Source: Pyrobaculum sp. WP30
GTDB taxonomy: Archaea > Thermoproteota > Thermoprotei > Thermoproteales > Thermoproteaceae
Direction: 5' to 3'
Assembly: GCA_001189275.1 (NCBI GenBank)
Contig: CP012158.1
Coordinates: 1,913,704-1,977,703, forward strand
Length of the DNA: 64,000 nt
This document shows, one piece after another, positions 21,692 through 29,953 of the stretch; the stretch's first letter is position 1; each line of letters opens with the position of its first letter. The notes under the pieces were generated by a model. It had not been told where the DNA came from and searched no databases. It was given only the letters and a program-made list of their open reading frames with translations. The position numbers and the translations under genes were made by a program.

Positions 21692-22618
21692 CTAGAGCAC
21701 CCTCACGTATTCTCTCGCCGCCGCGGCGAATGCCGGTGGGCTCTTCGGCCTGTATACCTCTCTTGTTCTCTCCTCGTATATCTCGTATCTGCTGAACGCC
21801 AGCTCCAGCGTGACCTCTTTCACCGTGCCGTCCCGGGCGCAGTACGCCCTTAGCTGGTTAAGCGAGAGACAAGCCTCCGACCCGTCCCTCGTCACGTAGG
21901 CCTCTATCATGTAGGGATGGAGGATGCTCGCCGGCCTCTGCCTTATCACATCAACCATCCACGGGAATCTGCGCATAACCTTGGCGATTTCCACCAGCCT
22001 ATCCCTAAGATCCAGCCACTTCTTCACCCAATCAACGCCGAATGCTTGCAACTCCGGCCACTCCTTCAGAAGCTCCTCCACGGGGTCGATCTTGACAACT
22101 AAAGCAGGCTCAGGCGGCTCCTTCATCTTCTCCAGCTCCCGCCTGTAGTCTCTAATTATCTCCTCAACACACTCCTCCACAGAGCGGCAATACGGCTGGT
22201 CCAGCCTCACCCCGTCTACAACAACGCCGCAGAAGACGTCGTACTGATTAACCCCCACACCCACCCTCCTGTATTCATACCACAGCCCGACGTCGTACTT
22301 CTCAGCCAGCTCCCACAATGCATCAGCCACCTGTTGCCTAATGCATCCACCCGCGTCTTCATCCTTCCGCCTTCTCCACCGCTCCTTAGCCTCCCACCTC
22401 CTCCTATCCCTTGAATGCACCCACACGCGATACCGCACGCATACTCCTTTGCGGCACCCCTCAGCCGTCAACACCCCCTCGTAGAGACAGCCGTCGCTGG
22501 CACACCACTCCTTAGGCGGCGGCTCATACTCCACATACTGAAGAATACCCAGCTTCTGAGGCAGTTCAAAAACGGCGGCTGTGGTTTTGATCTTTTTGGT
22601 CGTTGCCGTCATATCCAC
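21692..22618 (-). CDS. Cys-rich ORFan protein (308 aa), probable mobile-island gene
   Basis: 308 aa, unknown. The N-terminal ~100 residues contain cysteines in pairs (EWCASDGCLYEG .. AEGCRKGVCVRY .. GGCIRQQ) and a very basic stretch (SRDRRRWEAKERWRRRKDED). Further Cys occur at DVFCGVV and QPYCRSVEEC. The C-terminal half is helical, with AYVTRDGSEACLSLNQLR. It overlaps the upstream winged-helix gene by 10 bp, so they are co-transcribed. Composition and neighbours (PaREP2b) suggest an element specific to Pyrobaculum or its viruses/plasmids. Confidence 0.65.
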   Translation of the reverse strand: MDMTATTKKIKTTAAVFELPQKLGILQYVEYEPPPKEWCASDGCLYEGVLTAEGCRKGVCVRYRVWVHSRDRRRWEAKERWRRRKDEDAGGCIRQQVADALWELAEKYDVGLWYEYRRVGVGVNQYDVFCGVVVDGVRLDQPYCRSVEECVEEIIRDYRRELEKMKEPPEPALVVKIDPVEELLKEWPELQAFGVDWVKKWLDLRDRLVEIAKVMRRFPWMVDVIRQRPASILHPYMIEAYVTRDGSEACLSLNQLRAYCARDGTVKEVTLELAFSRYEIYEERTREVYRPKSPPAFAAAAREYVRVL

Positions 22619-22869
22619 TTCTTCAAGGCTGTTAAGACCTCCTTTACCGCCCTCCTCTCGATTAGGTCGACTCCCTTCTTGTGCCGCCTCGCCAGTCCCT
22701 TCTCAACCAGACTCATCATAAGGCTGTGCACAGCCCTCCCACACCGCCTATCCATGCCGCATATATCGCGGGTACGCACCGCGACCACGACACCTCTCTC
22801 ACCACTCACACGCCGCTGGACATACAGAAGCAGAGCCGGGAGGTACTGCCTAATCTTCCAGACCTTCAT
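22609..22869 (-). CDS. Winged-helix DNA-binding protein (ORFan)
   Basis: 86 aa. Helix-turn-helix-like order: an N-terminal strand/helix (VWKIRQYLPALLLYVQRR), a central DICGMDRRCGRAVHSLMMSLVEKGLARRH recognition region, and a C-terminal helix ending LTALKKWI. Likely the regulator of the following 308-aa gene, with which it overlaps by 10 bp. ATG 22869 lies only 27 bp from the divergent PaREP2b ATG, so it could control both. Confidence 0.6.
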   Translation of the reverse strand: MKVWKIRQYLPALLLYVQRRVSGERGVVVAVRTRDICGMDRRCGRAVHSLMMSLVEKGLARRHKKGVDLIERRAVKEVLTALKKWI

Positions 22870-22896
22870 ACCCTCATCTTCTTGGCGGCTTTCCTT

Positions 22897-24643
22897 ATGC
22901 TCGCCGTCGTTGTGCCAGCCGCCTCAGCCAGCCTCTTCAGAAGACCCAGCTTCTTGGGCGACGCCAGCCACAGAGCAGCCGCCTGTGGGTTCTTGCCAGC
23001 CGACGGCTTTAAAGGTGGGCTCCGGCTTCGACTTGGCTGGGGCGTTGAAGGAGTTGGAGGCGCTGAGGGACAGGCTAAACGACGACAAGGTGGCTAGAGA
23101 GGTCGTGGCGCCGACCCTCCTGCTTATCCGGGCGGAGAAGCTAGGCGTAAACGAGGCGACGCTGAGGTACTTCGGTGCTGTTATCTCCGGCGCAATAGAC
23201 GGCGACGGGCACGTGTCCGCGGCGCGGAAAGAAGTCGGCTTGACCAGCGGCGAGCGAGAAATCGCCCAGCTTTGGGTAGCCGCCTTGGCGGCGTACGACA
23301 TTAAGGCGGAGGTGAAAAAAGTCGGGAGTGTGTTTCACGTGGTCGCGTCTGGCGATGATGCCGTCAAGCTGGCCAGCCTTTACTTCCTCTTCGGTCCTCC
23401 TCTGCTTGAGGGAGGGGACGATAGGCTTAAGAGCCACAAGCTGGCTGAAGCCGTGAAGCTGGGGGCCGAGGGTCTCAGCGTCAGCTGGGAGGGGCTGAGG
23501 AGGACTCCAAGCGGCCTCGTCGCCGCCGATCTGATAATATCGGAGGGCGGCGCCGCCGTCAAGTACAACGCATATCTGCACGAACACGATGTCTCGCTTG
23601 AATTCCACTCGACGAACCGGAGCCGCGTGGAGCTCGCGGCCCGCCTCCTCAAGCTTGCCGGAGTCACCGCAGAGGTGACGAAGGTGGGCGGCAGAGACGA
23701 GTGGCGGGTCATAGCCACCACCGACAAGCTGGCGGCTGGACACGAAAAACTCAGAAAAGCCCTCGCCGAGATCGTTAGGAGGGCTATGGAGAATAGGTGG
23801 GTGGACGCCGACAGGGCAGAGCGCTGGTTTGAGAAGCTGGAGGAGGGCCTCACGCTGAGGGAGGGATGGCCGAAGTACTACGTAGGGCTGTCCAGTAGTG
23901 GCGGGCTTGAGGTCAGATTCAGCTCCACCAACCCCGACAGCATACAGCGGGAGACGCAACGGCTTATGGACATGGGCCTTGAGGAGGGGAGGCACTTCAC
24001 GGTGAAGATGCCGGAGGAAGGCCGCTTTGGCTACGTCTCGATCCTTAGGGAGGGTTTGGCGTACGCCGCCTGGCTCTCCGTGCACAGCAAGGATAAAGAC
24101 CAGAGGGAGCTGGCGGCCGTGTTCGTGGAGCGCATACTCCAGAGGGCGGAGGAGGCGGGCGACGACGTGCGCAAGAAAGCCGAGGAGATCGTGAAGGAGG
24201 GCAAGGAGAGGGCCTCTCTAGAGCTGAAGGGCTTTGAGAAGAAGGTTGAGGTGGACGGCAAGACATATGTCGTGAAGGTCATAGGCAGAGAAGCCGTTGA
24301 GGAGGGCGAAGGCGGCAGAAAGTTGCTGAGGATTAAAATAACGGCGGAGGTGGACGGCGTACTGCGCGAGTACACTATCACTTACAGCAGGCGCGGAGCC
24401 GGCAACGCGGCCGTGGGCTTCGCCACGGCTAGGGCCGACGCGCCAGGCGGCAGAGAGGCAGACGCCGAGAGACTCGCCGCCGTGGTAGAGGCGCTGACAG
24501 GAAAGAGGCCAAGGGTGTACCGCAAGAAGAACGGCCAGATAGTGTTAGAGTGCGGCAGAGAGCACCTAGACGGCTTCATGCGTTACGCCGAACTCGCAGA
24601 CGCCATCACGAGGTGGCTGGAGGAGACAGGTCGCCGGTACTAG
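22897..24643 (+). CDS. PaREP2b-type repeat protein, frameshifted near N-terminus
   Basis: The bulk (about 540 residues) matches the Pyrobaculum PaREP2b family from memory: FDLAGALKELEALRDRL, RYFGAVISGAIDGDGHVSAA, GPPLLEGGDDRLKSHKLAEAV, LTLREGWPKYYVGL, FEKKVEVDGKTYVVKVIG and LECGREHLDGFMRYAELADA. The usual N-terminal part (LFRRPSFLGDASHRAAACGF, from ATG 22897) is in another frame, and the two meet at the GGTGGG run at 23014-23019. The shift is +1 or -2. A GTG at 23015 could start the second frame alone. PaREP2b is a multicopy family, so this marks an inserted or duplicated element. Function unknown. Confidence 0.85.
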
Positions 24644-24664: not shown

Positions 24665-25096
24665 TTAGTGGCACTGGGATTGAGTAAGGTAATAAATCGG
24701 CGTGGAGTCTTTTACGCCTTCTATCTTTATCTCAACGGTTCTATCCGTCACGTCGCAGTAGAACGAGAGTTTTAGCACGCGTCGCTTTCCATCATCTACG
24801 TATTCATAGGCGCCGCTGTGGCCGTTGATAACTATCGACGTGCCTGCGAGTCTTTTTCTGCCGGGCTTCGCCACCACTCTTAACGTATACGTATCTGGGC
24901 CGTCTTTTATAAAGTGCATAACTTCGCCGTCGCGTACCCACTTGACGCCGTTTATTTCACGGTGTCTAAACACGTCGGAGGCCATAGGCATGATGATTAT
25001 CCTCCAGGTGGGCGGCGCCTTGAGAACCACGAAGTTGTAAAGGCCTAAAAGCCTGTTGCCGACTGCTATGGCGTGCCAGCTGTAGTCAGTGGACAT
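24665..25096 (-). CDS. Hypothetical protein, last gene of the ArsA-pair operon
   Basis: 143 aa, mostly beta (VGNRLLGLYNFVVL .. TWRIIIMPMASDVF .. DTYTLRVVAKPG .. RKRLAGTSIVING .. RTVEIKIEGVKDSTPIYYLT), suggesting a beta-sandwich or barrel. No family recognised. ATG 25096 lies inside the end of the preceding small-protein gene (11-bp overlap), indicating translational coupling. A longer start at 25117 is possible. It is the fifth gene of a unit that starts at 27569. Confidence 0.55.
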   Translation of the reverse strand: MSTDYSWHAIAVGNRLLGLYNFVVLKAPPTWRIIIMPMASDVFRHREINGVKWVRDGEVMHFIKDGPDTYTLRVVAKPGRKRLAGTSIVINGHSGAYEYVDDGKRRVLKLSFYCDVTDRTVEIKIEGVKDSTPIYYLTQSQCH

Positions 25097-25346
25097 GATG
25101 TTCCCCAAGGAGATCAAATATGTCGTGTTCTTTAACTGCCTCTTTTCTGATCTCCGACAGCGACGGATAGACGTAGGGAAGGAGCCTTAATGAGTAGTAC
25201 GTGGAAAGCAACGGTAGTCCTAGGAAGTCCCCAAAGACGAGGAACTCCACCAGTAGCCGTGTCTGTCTATGGATTTTGCCTATTTCTCTGTATAGGTCTA
25301 GGAAGAGTAGGCCAAAGAGAAATTCTTTGAGAGGTTTAAGATTCAT
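25086..25346 (-). CDS. Small ArsA-associated protein B
   Basis: 86 aa, helical, with two hydrophobic helices around FLFGLLFLDLYREIG and LLVEFLVFGDFLGLPLL, followed by TYYSLRLLPYVYPSLSEIR. The segment GDxLGxPxL(x)2YYSLRLLPYVxP is shared with the 82-aa protein at 27321-27569, so the two are paralogues lying at opposite ends of the ATPase pair. The ATGA start overlaps the stop of ArsA-2. An adaptor or membrane-associated partner is inferred. Confidence 0.65.
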   Translation of the reverse strand: MNLKPLKEFLFGLLFLDLYREIGKIHRQTRLLVEFLVFGDFLGLPLLSTYYSLRLLPYVYPSLSEIRKEAVKEHDIFDLLGEHHVH

Positions 25347-26323
25347 GAAACGAGTAACGTCGCCAACGCCCTAAGCCTTTCAAGCCCTACTATGTCTTCG
25401 GGGAATTGTTTCACCACCGCTAGTATGTTTGGAGAGAAGGCTTTTCTTATTAGTTCTAGGTTTCTCTGTTGTTCTTCGTATTTGCTCTTTAAGAAACCTG
25501 TGGCGTCGCGCTCAGCCTCCTCGGGGGGTATCACCATGTTGACCACGACGCCTCCGTAAGGTATCTCGTATGCTCTGACCATTTCTATAAATCTTTGGAC
25601 TACGGAGATTGCGAGCACTGTGGGTATAGTCACAAATACGAATCTAGTGAGATTTGAATCTGTAAGTACAGATCTGACTTTTACATATCTATTGTAGAGA
25701 TCTTGCAACTCCATTAAGACGGGGTCTTTCTCAATTTCTTCTTTGATCTTCTCCTTACGGAACGACAACTGCTCTTTTAGGGTTAACGTCTCGATTCTCA
25801 TCTTAATGGTGCGCTGAAGCCATGCGCCGTATAGTTTAGAGAGCCCTATCAGCCTTATTGCGTTGGCCACGGCCGCCATGTCGAAGACTATGCGGTCGTA
25901 GTTCTCTCCCTCCTTTAGCACCACGTCCATCATCTTGTCAAAAGCGGCGGCTTCGTGAAAGGCCGGGTTTGTCGTGGCTATGTCGATCAACGGCTTGATG
26001 TCCACGGAGACTTCCGCCATCTTCAACATTTCCTTCAGCAAGTTGGTTATCCTCGTCTTATACTTCTCTACGATATCGTCATACTGAACCTCTAGGGCCC
26101 AGAGATTCTTCACGCCTGAAATCTGCTTCACCACGCCGCCGGAGAGGTCTTGGCCGAATACAGAGGTGAGGCTGTGTACAGGGTTGAAGCTTGCCAGAAG
26201 GGTCCGTTTGCCCACGTTCTCGGCGAAATGCAATGCGGTGGCGGCCGCGATAACGGTCTTGCCTACTCCGCCTTTCCCGCCGAAGAATATGTACTTTACG
26301 TTTTGAGATAACAACTGCTTCAT
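25343..26323 (-). CDS. Get3/ArsA-like ATPase 2 (switch-degenerate)
   Basis: 326 aa from ATG 26323, which overlaps the stop of ArsA-1 (ATGA). It has a complete deviant Walker A (GGKGGVGKTV, K22) but departs from the Get3/ArsA family in both switches. The switch I STDP signature reads SFNP (N47 where the hydrolytic Asp is expected). Switch II reads DMAAVANAIR (148-157), where ArsA-1 has DMPPFGHGIR. A long helical insert (RIETLTLKEQLSFRKEKIKEE) corresponds to the client-binding helical subdomain. Family members are dimers that couple ATP to membrane-protein targeting or metalloid export. This copy likely binds but hydrolyses ATP poorly. Confidence 0.85.
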   Translation of the reverse strand: MKQLLSQNVKYIFFGGKGGVGKTVIAAATALHFAENVGKRTLLASFNPVHSLTSVFGQDLSGGVVKQISGVKNLWALEVQYDDIVEKYKTRITNLLKEMLKMAEVSVDIKPLIDIATTNPAFHEAAAFDKMMDVVLKEGENYDRIVFDMAAVANAIRLIGLSKLYGAWLQRTIKMRIETLTLKEQLSFRKEKIKEEIEKDPVLMELQDLYNRYVKVRSVLTDSNLTRFVFVTIPTVLAISVVQRFIEMVRAYEIPYGGVVVNMVIPPEEAERDATGFLKSKYEEQQRNLELIRKAFSPNILAVVKQFPEDIVGLERLRALATLLVS

Positions 26324-27324
26324 AGGTACTCCTCGATCTTCTTGCTGGGAGACCACAGTTCTTCAGCCACAGGCTTGAGCGTCTGTATGCCCTTGGGCTC
26401 TCTATTGAGCATCGGCACCACCGATACTATATATTTGCCGAATTTCTCCACTATCTCGGCGATATACTTCTTCTGCTCTTCTACTCTCCGTCTTAGATAC
26501 GCCGGAGCATCTGCCCTCTTGGCGAGGTCGGGGGGATAAACCTGGTTGACTACTATGCCCGTCAACTTAAGCCCAAGCGAGTTAAACATCTCTAAGGCCC
26601 TCTCGGTGTCGAGTATAGTCATCCTCTCGGGGGTCATAACCATCATAAACGCGGTGGTCTTAGTGTTGAGCAGTATATCTCTAAACTTAAGGATGCGGCC
26701 TCTTATGTACTCAAGCTCGTTGAGTATTTCGTCCTCGTAGGTGAGCTTCTGCCGCTTCAGCGAAGCCGCCACCCGGCCGTATTCGTAGGCCTGCCGCCTA
26801 AGCTCGGTGATTTTCTCGACCCATTTGCTGATCACATCTGCTATCGCTATCATCCTGATGCCGTGGCCGAAGGGCGGCATGTCGAAGACGTAGTAGTCGT
26901 ACTTCCCCTCCGACACGACGTCGACCATGGCGTCGTAGACCGCGCTTTCGTACATGGCGGGCTCCGCCGCCGCGCTGTCTATATACTCCTCGATGTCTTT
27001 AGGCAGGGAATCCAGCTTATACATGTCTATAATCTTCTTCTTTATGGCGTTCACATACTCGTTGATCTTCTTGTCTGCATCTATCTCCATCACGTAGAGG
27101 TTCTCCGCCAGCTTCACCTCACCCTTGCCAAAGACGTTCTGCTCAAACACGTCGCTCAAAGAGGCTTGGGGGTCTGTGCTAAAGACTAGAGTTCTCCTGC
27201 CCATTGACGACAGCTTTATAGAGGTGGCTGCAGAGAGCGTCGTCTTGCCTAGGCCTCCTTTGCCGGCGTAGATAAACACCTTAAGCGATGGGTTTTCCTC
27301 CAGAAGGCCCTTAAGCCCCTTCAT
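26320..27324 (-). CDS. Get3/ArsA-like ATPase 1 (complete catalytic motifs)
   Basis: 334 aa. Deviant Walker A AGKGGLGKTT (K27), switch I STDPQASLSD (D51), switch II DMPPFGHGIR (148-157), and a helical subdomain around ITELRRQAYEYGRVAASLKRQ. No CxxC zinc motif of eukaryotic Get3 and no metalloid-binding Cys pattern are seen, so arsenite transport is not supported. A Get3-like targeting or chaperone role with its partner is an inference. ATGA overlaps link it to the 82-aa gene upstream and to ArsA-2 downstream. Confidence 0.88.
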   Translation of the reverse strand: MKGLKGLLEENPSLKVFIYAGKGGLGKTTLSAATSIKLSSMGRRTLVFSTDPQASLSDVFEQNVFGKGEVKLAENLYVMEIDADKKINEYVNAIKKKIIDMYKLDSLPKDIEEYIDSAAAEPAMYESAVYDAMVDVVSEGKYDYYVFDMPPFGHGIRMIAIADVISKWVEKITELRRQAYEYGRVAASLKRQKLTYEDEILNELEYIRGRILKFRDILLNTKTTAFMMVMTPERMTILDTERALEMFNSLGLKLTGIVVNQVYPPDLAKRADAPAYLRRRVEEQKKYIAEIVEKFGKYIVSVVPMLNREPKGIQTLKPVAEELWSPSKKIEEYL

Positions 27325-27569
27325 GTCACCAGGTCTGTGAAGTCTCTCTCCCTCAACATGTAACGCTTCCAGTTTTGGATATTTGGAAACACATACGGCA
27401 GAAGCCTCAAGGAGTAATACGGCGGAAGTATGGGAACGCCTAACATGTCGCCTACCGTAATTATCATAAACAAGTTGTCTATCTGGGCCTTAACCTTCAA
27501 TATAGCAGTAGATTGACCATGCACCGTTAGACCCTCTACTACCTCCCTTATTCTATCTAATATGCCCAT
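27321..27569 (-). CDS. Small ArsA-associated protein A
   Basis: 82 aa, first gene of the operon. The C-terminal half, GDMLGVPILPPYYSLRLLPYVFP, is a clear paralogue of the protein at 25086-25346. The N-terminal helix (MGILDRIREVVEGL) is amphipathic. The TATA box (caataaaaac, about 27587-27597) overlaps the end of cstA and sits 25 bp before ATG 27569, so the operon is independently transcribed. Overlap with ArsA-1 is by ATGA. Confidence 0.65.
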   Translation of the reverse strand: MGILDRIREVVEGLTVHGQSTAILKVKAQIDNLFMIITVGDMLGVPILPPYYSLRLLPYVFPNIQNWKRYMLRERDFTDLVT

Positions 27570-27592: not shown

Positions 27593-29356
27593 TTATTGTT
27601 TTTGTCTATACTTAGCAAAGCCGGCGAATAGATAGTACGCCATTACTGCGCCAAGTACCAACAGCAACGCTCCGAAAGCCGCCGACAAGAAGTTAGATAT
27701 CTGCACCACGGCGCCGCCGTAGAGCTTCGCGGCAGATGCTTGGACCCCTATCGGTTTGTTCTGCAAGGCGTAGAGGAGGTAGACGTAGGTCTCCCAAGCC
27801 AACGCCGCCAGTGTAGTTATTGCCATGAAGCCGCCTGGTATTAAAGTGTACCAACTAGGCTTCTTCACGCTGGCGAGGAAAATCGCAATTAGCAAAAGCG
27901 CGAGGCCGGCCAACAGCTGGTTAGTGCCTCCGAAGAAGATCCAGAGGTTAGTCCAGCTACCTACGAACGCCAAGAAGCCGGCGACGATTAGTAGAATGAT
28001 CGGCGAGATATATTTATTCCCCAGGGGGCTGTCTTCAAACAACTCGGCCATTATGAGTCTAAATATCCGCACGAAGAGCATAGAGGTTATGAGCCCCATG
28101 ACAGTCACAAAGATGCCGTATAGGATATTCATGTATATAGCAGGTACCTGAAGCATTTTAGTGGTAAGTAGAGATGCGCCCTGCACATAAGCAGCTGCGC
28201 CTGCAGGCGGCTGGGAGAGCACCATTACTGCGGCAATAGAAGAGAGCGCCACGGCGCCTTCAGTAAACATAGCGCCTCCACCGACGGGGAGCGCATCTGT
28301 TTCGTACTCTAGTTGCTTAGAGGTGAGACCTGACGAAACTAAACTATGCCAACCTGAGATGGCGCCGCAGGCTATAGTAACGAAAAGGATCGGCCATATA
28401 GGACCTCCTTGCGGGTTGACCATGGGATCGACGTATAAGTTCTTCACTGCTTGTTGCTGGATGGTAAGCCCTGTGATTGGAGTTACCAAGGCCGCCAGAA
28501 GAACTAAGACAAGCGCTATGATGGAGGGGAGGTAGCCCACGTAGACCGTAGGTAGGAGGAATTTGGGCATGGGGGTGGTGGCTGCTATGTAGTACAGGAT
28601 TGAAAGAACTAGAAGCCAAAACGCCACGGTGAGGGTGCCGGGGTATGTGAGCTTGGGGTCGAAGCCGTATTGTGCAAAGAAGCCGGGGCCATCTAGGAAG
28701 TTTGTGGTGGGCCATTGCGTCGCTGGAATTAACGCCACCGTGAAGTAACCCACTAGCACTATAAGAAGCGCTATCAGCGTAGCCAATAGGGCGTCCATCC
28801 GCATTTTGAATATAAGCTGGCCGAATATTATGCCTCCAAAGAGGACGAAAAGAACTGCGGTGAAGGTGCCCGGCACTCTGTTCAACACGTCGATGATGAC
28901 CCATTCAAAGACGGCGGTGATTATGATAAGGTAGAAGATTAAGTACACCAAGAGTATCTTCCGGGCGCGGTCCCCCAGCAACTTATAGGTTATGGGGCCC
29001 ATGGACCGCCCCTCGTTCCTCACCGACATCATCATGGCTGAATAATCCTGCGCCCAGCCGATGAACATGTTGCCGAAGATCACCCACAGCAAAGCAGGTA
29101 TCCAGCCGAAGAACAAGACCCCCGTGAGCGGCCCCACTATTGGGCCCAACGCCGCCACCGATTTGAACTGGTAGCCGAAGAGGACGTATTTAGACACCGG
29201 GAAGTACTCAACACCGTCGAAGTACAGCCTCGACGGGGTGGGTCTGTTGGGGTCTGTTTCCCAAATCTTTTTGTCTATCCACCTCGCATAGAATCTATAT
29301 GTTAGAAAATATAACACCAGCCCTAACAATATATAGGGAGCTGGAGTATTTAGCAT
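27593..29356 (-). CDS. cstA: CstA-family carbon starvation/peptide or pyruvate transporter
   Basis: 587 aa, about 15 predicted membrane helices. CstA signatures include YFPVSKYVLFGYQFKSVAALGPIVGP (N-terminal third), FGNMFIGWAQDYSAMM with RNEGRSMGP, and SGLTSKQL (GWHSLVSSGLTSKQL) in the middle. Family members import peptides or pyruvate; here the substrate is unknown. ATG 29356 is chosen because tatatag (about 29378-29386) is 25 bp upstream; longer starts precede the transcript. It is followed 23 bp later by the ArsA-pair operon. Confidence 0.9.
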   Translation of the reverse strand: MLNTPAPYILLGLVLYFLTYRFYARWIDKKIWETDPNRPTPSRLYFDGVEYFPVSKYVLFGYQFKSVAALGPIVGPLTGVLFFGWIPALLWVIFGNMFIGWAQDYSAMMMSVRNEGRSMGPITYKLLGDRARKILLVYLIFYLIIITAVFEWVIIDVLNRVPGTFTAVLFVLFGGIIFGQLIFKMRMDALLATLIALLIVLVGYFTVALIPATQWPTTNFLDGPGFFAQYGFDPKLTYPGTLTVAFWLLVLSILYYIAATTPMPKFLLPTVYVGYLPSIIALVLVLLAALVTPITGLTIQQQAVKNLYVDPMVNPQGGPIWPILFVTIACGAISGWHSLVSSGLTSKQLEYETDALPVGGGAMFTEGAVALSSIAAVMVLSQPPAGAAAYVQGASLLTTKMLQVPAIYMNILYGIFVTVMGLITSMLFVRIFRLIMAELFEDSPLGNKYISPIILLIVAGFLAFVGSWTNLWIFFGGTNQLLAGLALLLIAIFLASVKKPSWYTLIPGGFMAITTLAALAWETYVYLLYALQNKPIGVQASAAKLYGGAVVQISNFLSAAFGALLLVLGAVMAYYLFAGFAKYRQKQ

Positions 29357-29422
29357 AGAGCCAACACGTCTCAACTATATAAGTGTTGGGTTTGCCAAAT
29401 GACGAGATCTTATCGGTATAAA

Positions 29423-29953
29423 TTAGCCATTTGACGAAAAAAGTTTCACAAATCCAAGCGCGGCGGAGAGAGCCTTTCCGCAGTCGGTACCCGGCATGAT
29501 TAACTGCACAGATCTTCCGGATACCGTAATTCTCCAGATCCCCCTCTCCGCGGCGTAACTCAGTATCTTCTCTAAGACGTCCTTAGGGGTCGAGCGGTTT
29601 ACCACGTAGTAGTCGCCTATTTTTCTGCCTGTACCAGACCTCGACGCGTCGGCTGCCCCGATATCTATTGGCAACATGAACCTAGTCGCCACGTAGGGGC
29701 GGCGGCTTGCCGCAAACGCGGCTAATAGGTTCACTGGGTTGTCCCATGGAAGTTTATTTATGAACATCTCTATTTTGTCGTTGTTGCATAGAAGCGAGAT
29801 GTAGAGCGAGTTAGGTCCTCCTATCCATCTCTCCACAGCACATCCACAGCCCTTTACCACAGACTTATTGAATCTATGCGCAACGACGTGGGAAACGGCG
29901 TACCAAGAGCCGATTATCAATATGAATATGATTAACGCGTCCAGTGGCGACAT
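29423..29953 (-). CDS. Single-pass membrane protein, hypothetical
   Basis: 176 aa from ATG 29953. An N-terminal transmembrane helix ([21 protein letters not shown]) is followed by a soluble domain with [10 protein letters not shown], a strand-rich middle (FMLPIDIG) and a C-terminal [24 protein letters not shown]. The frame is open farther upstream but would then run through rpoH; an AT box (agtattttac, about 29974-29984) supports 29953. No family recognised. Confidence 0.6.

Follow-up and report, generated by a model that had tools for sequence, protein, structure and literature searches.

We report that a gene cassette of Pyrobaculum sp. WP30, lying in a 64,000-nucleotide stretch of contig CP012158.1 (the window; all coordinates are positions within it), encodes a pair of adjacent ArsA/Get3-family ATPases that differ invariantly at one switch I residue. 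ATPase 1 (A1; 334 amino acids (aa); 26320..27324, minus strand) keeps the catalytic Asp; in ATPase 2 (A2; 326 aa; 25343..26323, minus strand, start codon ATG at 26323) this residue is Asn, and the site is predicted to be hydrolysis-poor. The cassette begins with a gene for a transporter of the carbon-starvation family, CstA (PF02554, E 2e-97; 593 aa; 27593..29374, minus strand), and it also encodes small CstX proteins. We propose that the two ATPases form a heterodimer with one hydrolytic site, which drives or gates CstA through CstX; we give this reading a probability of roughly 0.6.

Asymmetry of the paired ATPases

A1 and A2 are both members of PF02374 (E 1e-71 and 2e-56, respectively) and TIGR00345 (E 4e-69 for A1), have the ArsA/Get3 ATPase fold with its deviant Walker A motif, and are the sole full-length members of this family in the genome. 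At the position of Get3 Asp57 in switch I, A1 has Asp51 (STDPQAS; codon at 27172..27174) and A2 has Asn47 (SFNPVHS; codon at 26183..26185). In switch II, A1 reads DMPPFGHGIR (26854..26883), which includes His154, and A2 reads DMAAVANAIR (25853..25882), which includes Asn154. These residues, together with the P-loop Lys of A2, are as an earlier sequence-only reading of this DNA had given them.

We collected A2 orthologues from 81 genomes of the class, from ~400 genomes of the phylum and from a set of 84,980 species genomes that was scanned with peptide patterns; these patterns (GGKGGVGK and TNP[AS]F..) left out switch I, so selection for Asn was impossible. Switch residues were read from one alignment of all ATPases: A2, A1, single, other Get3-like and tandem ArsA. 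The switch I residue is Asn in 55/55 A2 proteins, which come from Thermoproteota, Bathyarchaeota, Methanoperedens and several bacterial phyla, and none of these orthologues has an intact STDP or GH. It is Asp in all 120 readable non-A2 sequences: 54/54 A1 proteins and 66 others, made up of all 37 single ATPases encoded in CstA/CstX loci, all 22 of the other Get3-like proteins and all 7 halves of tandem ArsA. The Gly and His of switch II, present in 55/55 A1 proteins, are replaced in A2 by Ala (54/54) and Asn (50/54). On the other hand, A2 retains the signature Lys, the Lys and Thr of the P-loop, the switch II Asp and the base Asn.

Being invariant across 55 orthologues, the A2 Asn is not a product of chance. 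Moreover, of the 320 columns in A2 only 50 do not vary, and divergence among A2 proteins reaches 64%; the Asn is therefore under strong constraint, rather than the outcome of recent drift. Nor is A1 fully canonical: its switch I reads DPQAS in place of the usual DPAHS (54/54). The losses of Asp and His are thus reciprocal, in that the switch I His is gone from A1 (54/54) yet kept in A2.

Composition of the cassette and linkage to cstA

The sequence-only reading had described five genes that overlap head-to-tail (24665..27569), and we verified all five open reading frames (ORFs), their sizes and their overlaps; that reading had overlooked the upstream neighbour, cstA, which ends 23 bp before the gene for an 82-aa CstX (CstX1; 27321..27569). 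The block accordingly makes up the 3' portion of a longer cassette, all of it on the minus strand, in which CstX1 is followed by A1, A2, a second CstX (CstX2; 86 aa; 25086..25346) and a 143-aa all-beta protein (24665..25096). The CstX1/A1, A1/A2 and A2/CstX2 junctions are 4-bp ATGA overlaps, and that of CstX2 with the beta-protein gene is 11 bp; these overlaps indicate that the five genes are likely to share a single transcript.

When the genes that flank the double-ATPase loci were clustered, a single family dominated: CstA. A profile search placed cstA in 48/55 A2 loci, in archaea and bacteria alike. Among the seven A2 loci with no nearby cstA, one has the gene 37 kb away, and three are short or run up to a contig end. 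Within the class, CstA is encoded by 17/17 genomes that have the pair, and the pair by 0/55 genomes that are without CstA. Two Pyrobaculum genomes that have no cstA (G066 and G069) have neither ATPase; two others of the genus (G063 and G068) have a different CstA, a single ATPase of the canonical STDP type and one CstX. The module thus appears to have been exchanged within the genus as a whole, not piecemeal. The association also extends to single-ATPase loci: cstA is found in 34/36 of those that have CstX, compared with 0/20 control ATPase loci without CstX. In related genomes the linkage is not lost.

Each ATPase forms one clade (support 100 for A1 and for A2), the two clades are sisters (support 97), and the CstA proteins of double loci are likewise one clade (support 100). 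The monophyly and sister position of A1 and A2 point to one duplication that is older than their archaeal and bacterial carriers. The former are Pyrobaculum and related Thermoproteota, Bathyarchaeota and Methanoperedens; the latter are Chloroflexi, Symbiobacterium, Desulfobacterales, Acidobacteria and Gemmatimonadetes, in a list that includes many metagenome bins, of which single ones could be mis-assigned. The A1 and A2 genes are adjacent in the sampled loci, and their distance sets correlate (r 0.97, 53 loci). A2 occurs without A1 in two loci only, where a contig end or a split reading frame accounts for it.

Proposed mechanism and alternative explanations

The D57N mutant of yeast Get3 binds ATP but does not hydrolyse it (PMC12506534), and by this likeness we infer that A2 would do the same. 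The sequence-only reading had suggested an obligate pair of one hydrolysis-competent and one hydrolysis-poor subunit; this view is supported by the invariant Asn, the retained P-loop, signature Lys and base Asn, the single duplication and the adjacency of the genes. The predicted heterodimer would have a single active site and be coupled to CstA. We envisage that A1 and A2 most likely pair as a heterodimer, much as Get3 subunits or the two halves of ArsA do: both subunits would bind ATP, the signature lysine of A2 would reach across the interface to the A1 site, and only the nucleotide in A1 would be hydrolysed. ATP binding would close the dimer, and one-site hydrolysis would reopen it. The CstX proteins would link this dimer to CstA in the membrane, such that each ATP cycle may drive, gate or regulate transport. 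CstY (a protein with one predicted membrane helix, described below), the beta protein with its Cys/Cys/His residues and a thioredoxin-like protein of other loci would be accessory and may sense or bind a thiol, a metal or the redox state. On a broader and more tentative view, to which we give somewhat less than even odds, a CstA of the secondary type became, in one archaeal-bacterial clade, an ATP-driven or ATP-gated complex with an obligate heterodimer, one subunit dead and one live, and with a metal/thiol accessory protein of its own. This would be a logic comparable to that of ABC transporters with degenerate sites.

Three observations weigh against our proposal. CstA of Escherichia coli is driven by a proton gradient (PMC7730263) and works with no ArsA-type ATPase, so such an ATPase is not intrinsically needed. 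In addition, three bacterial A2 loci with full flanks have no cstA within 6 kb. Finally, homology of CstX to YbdD, the small partner of E. coli CstA, could not be demonstrated (hhalign 10%).

The alternative that fares best is a regulatory one, in which the ATPase pair is an ATP/ADP-sensing or redox-sensing switch that opens and closes a proton-driven CstA. A subunit that is probably non-hydrolysing would suit such a switch, as would the thiol- or metal-type accessories (the Cys/Cys/His beta protein, and the thioredoxin-like protein of 28 loci) and the proton-driven transport in E. coli; nevertheless, gating and energization look the same in gene context and are inseparable by it, and we consider a purely regulatory role unlikely.

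It is more doubtful still that the ATPases and CstX, with CstY, serve as dedicated biogenesis factors for the insertion, folding or assembly of CstA, a protein with many membrane spans. It is true that the family's Get3 branch chaperones membrane proteins, that some CstY-like proteins weakly resemble CCDC47, a subunit of the eukaryotic multipass translocon (3 members of a set of 23 that includes L102:5309-5950, L107:3299-3916 and relatives; best E 0.00035), and that the fold of the beta protein is distantly, and weakly, like that of SciW, a chaperone for membrane segments. However, the zinc-binding CxxC motif occurs in 13/22 other Get3s but in 0/110 A1 and A2 proteins and 0/37 CstA-linked single ATPases (0/147 in total). 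The client region, as judged from sequence, is also more charged than in other Get3s (41% versus 34%) and more hydrophilic (grand average of hydropathy -0.8 versus -0.4). Furthermore, the CstY profile has no match to CCDC47 in PDB sequences, and E. coli produces its CstA with no such factors. The sequence-only reading had thought of membrane-protein insertion; the missing CxxC and the way in which the genes track cstA speak against it. General insertion of tail-anchored proteins by an archaeal Get3 heterodimer, for which Pfam and TIGR00345 membership might be cited, we reject as highly improbable, because the CxxC is absent and the ATPase genes follow cstA: they are linked to one transporter family and are missing from G066 and G069, which belong to the same genus but have no cstA.

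Relation to described systems

The sequence-only reading knew of no described system with this layout. However, the sections on CstA operons in Castillo and Saier (2010; PMC2963123) describe ArsA-CstA-CstX(-CstY) operons (clusters 14-18), in which CstX and CstY were named and which have the same gene families and order as the window. Since cluster 15 is an adjacent ATPase pair, in Pyrobaculum arsenaticum (334 and 327 aa) and Symbiobacterium, the layout was already known from those sections, as were the two CstX paralogues of P. arsenaticum. The window has the elements of that module: cstA in the cluster, CstX of about 90 aa in two copies, and single-domain ArsA homologues of about 330 aa. The same sections propose that ArsA homologues energize CstA, report coevolution of CstA, CstX and ArsA, suggest that CstA-linked ATPases may be homodimers, and note that, in single-domain proteins, Asn is the sole substitute for the Asp of the SXD motif. 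They do not assign this Asn to one subunit of the pair, and they list neither the beta protein nor the thioredoxin-like protein in CstA operons. Relative to the open-licence literature, we add that the Asn is fixed in one partner of an obligate pair, that this pair arose from a single ancient duplication and goes with a single CstA clade, and that the module includes a beta protein with a C-terminal Cys-His as well as a protein of thioredoxin-like type.

The idea that ArsA/Get3-type ATPases directly power transporters besides ArsB was put forward in 2010 and is still a proposal. An invariant change of a kind that stops Get3 hydrolysis, in one of two paired ATPases, amounts to a natural separation of ATP binding from hydrolysis, and the asymmetric module makes both the heterodimer and its coupling to CstA directly testable. 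It also corrects, across many phyla, the likely annotation of these genes as arsenical-pump or tail-anchor-insertion ATPases and as several hypothetical proteins.

Of the known systems, the ArsA-ArsB arsenite pump resembles the cassette in having paired nucleotide sites beside a transporter, either in a tandem ArsA or, in Alkaliphilus metalliredigens, in two single-domain ArsA proteins with Acr3; its accessory thiol protein, ArsD, can be likened to that of the cassette. Unlike A2, the sampled ArsA halves keep the Asp, and CstA is neither ArsB nor Acr3. We rejected a role in arsenic resistance: no ars gene (arsB, acr3, arsR or arsD) was recognized among the conserved neighbour clusters, and cysteines are few (mean 0.4-0.8 per protein). 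The sections of PMC2963123 on these operons likewise describe arsenic and carbon-starvation genes as not mixed. Get3/TRC40 shares with A1 and A2 the fold family, the P-loop with its signature Lys and the D57N analogy, but it is a homodimer with a zinc CxxC, a hydrophobic client groove and tail-anchored clients. Mycobacterial BagA/BagB (Rv3679/Rv3680; one solved entry, PDB 6bs3) are likewise two distinct Get3-like chains, yet they are distant from the window ATPases (E 4e-6 or weaker) and have another gene context.

In E. coli, pyruvate is a substrate of CstA relatives, and peptides may be as well. The E. coli CstA-YbdD and BtsT-YjiX systems, like the cassette, combine a transporter of this family with a small protein on which it depends (CstA uptake requires YbdD; PMC5847655), but no ATPase is present there. 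PF04328 is absent from the 81 class genomes. As a side observation, other Get3-like ATPases, at four loci in Bacteroidota and Chlorobiaceae bins, lie among what looks like a gas-vesicle gene cluster, which fits PMC2963123.

Small and accessory proteins

CstX1 and CstX2 are paralogues (mutual matches at E ~1e-12), as the sequence-only reading had it, and both match the NCBIfam model cory-CC-star, NF041419 (E 1e-8, 35 bits, and E 2e-5, 25 bits, respectively). These scores are below the curated cut-off of 80 bits, and the C-terminal CC is absent from both proteins, whose tails are DLVT (CstX1) and HHVH (CstX2); by sequence, they are related to that family but are not equivalogs. All 62 CstX relatives match the model, and a CC-star profile built mainly from cstA-adjacent Bacillales proteins aligns along almost the entire length (hhalign 98.9%, E 1e-17). 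From their size and context, the small proteins are the CstX of Castillo and Saier. An AlphaFold model of CstX1 is a helical hairpin (predicted local distance difference test (pLDDT) score 84). A fold search of the PDB with the small protein and a plasmid search with CstX1 returned no match, and a search of open-licence papers found none on cory-CC-star.

Two CstX copies are present in 38/55 loci, and only one was found in 15/55. The idea of two dedicated adaptors thus stands as regards conservation and dedication of the small proteins, but not as regards their number in every locus. In two loci the second CstX is on the strand opposite to the ATPase pair: its position is free, and its presence is kept. 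The C-terminus of CstX2 is often His, as in the window, and that of single-module CstX is RCC or HF; Bacillales CstX and YbdD both end in RCC. A plasmid of Natronorubrum bangense has a haloarchaeal arsD-arsA followed by genes for two small 'halo-CC-star' proteins, HcsL and HcsS; CC-star proteins thus also accompany an ATPase of the arsenite-pump type.

The beta protein has orthologues in 29 loci, two of them bacterial; His93, Cys114 and the C-terminal Cys142-His143 are invariant in 24 orthologues. Together with the terminal His of CstX2, which is largely conserved, this Cys-His may form part of a recurring C-terminal metal or thiol site. The AlphaFold2 model of the beta protein (pLDDT 91.7) is nearest, weakly, to solved folds of the PsbP/Mog1/Tsi3/DcrB group (Foldseek; E ~1e-3, template modelling score ~0.5), and no relative was found by sequence in the PDB. 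A guess based on Get3d, that this protein is a stand-alone ArsA_HSP20/alpha-crystallin domain, was discarded: 0/24 members have a meaningful Pfam match, and Foldseek leads to PsbP/Mog1/Tsi3-like folds.

Upstream of cstA in the window lies the gene for a CstY-like protein (176 aa; 29423..29953, minus strand) with one apparent N-terminal membrane helix; it matches the neighbour-family profile of other loci (E 8e-62) and has no Pfam match. Such one-helix proteins, of 176-220 aa, occur in ~40 loci, and their two profiles match one another (hhalign 96%, E 4e-9). Their size, single hydrophobic segment and context suggest that they are the CstY described in the operon sections of PMC2963123; homology to CCDC47 is no more than a lead, given the few weak matches noted above and the lack of any match in PDB sequences. 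The thioredoxin-like protein (weak PF13192) is absent from the window. Directly downstream of the cassette, an ORF on the plus strand (22415-24643) matches PaRep2b (PF07775, E 2e-11) and LAGLIDADG_3 (E 2e-6); it occupies the place that the thioredoxin-like gene has in some related genomes.

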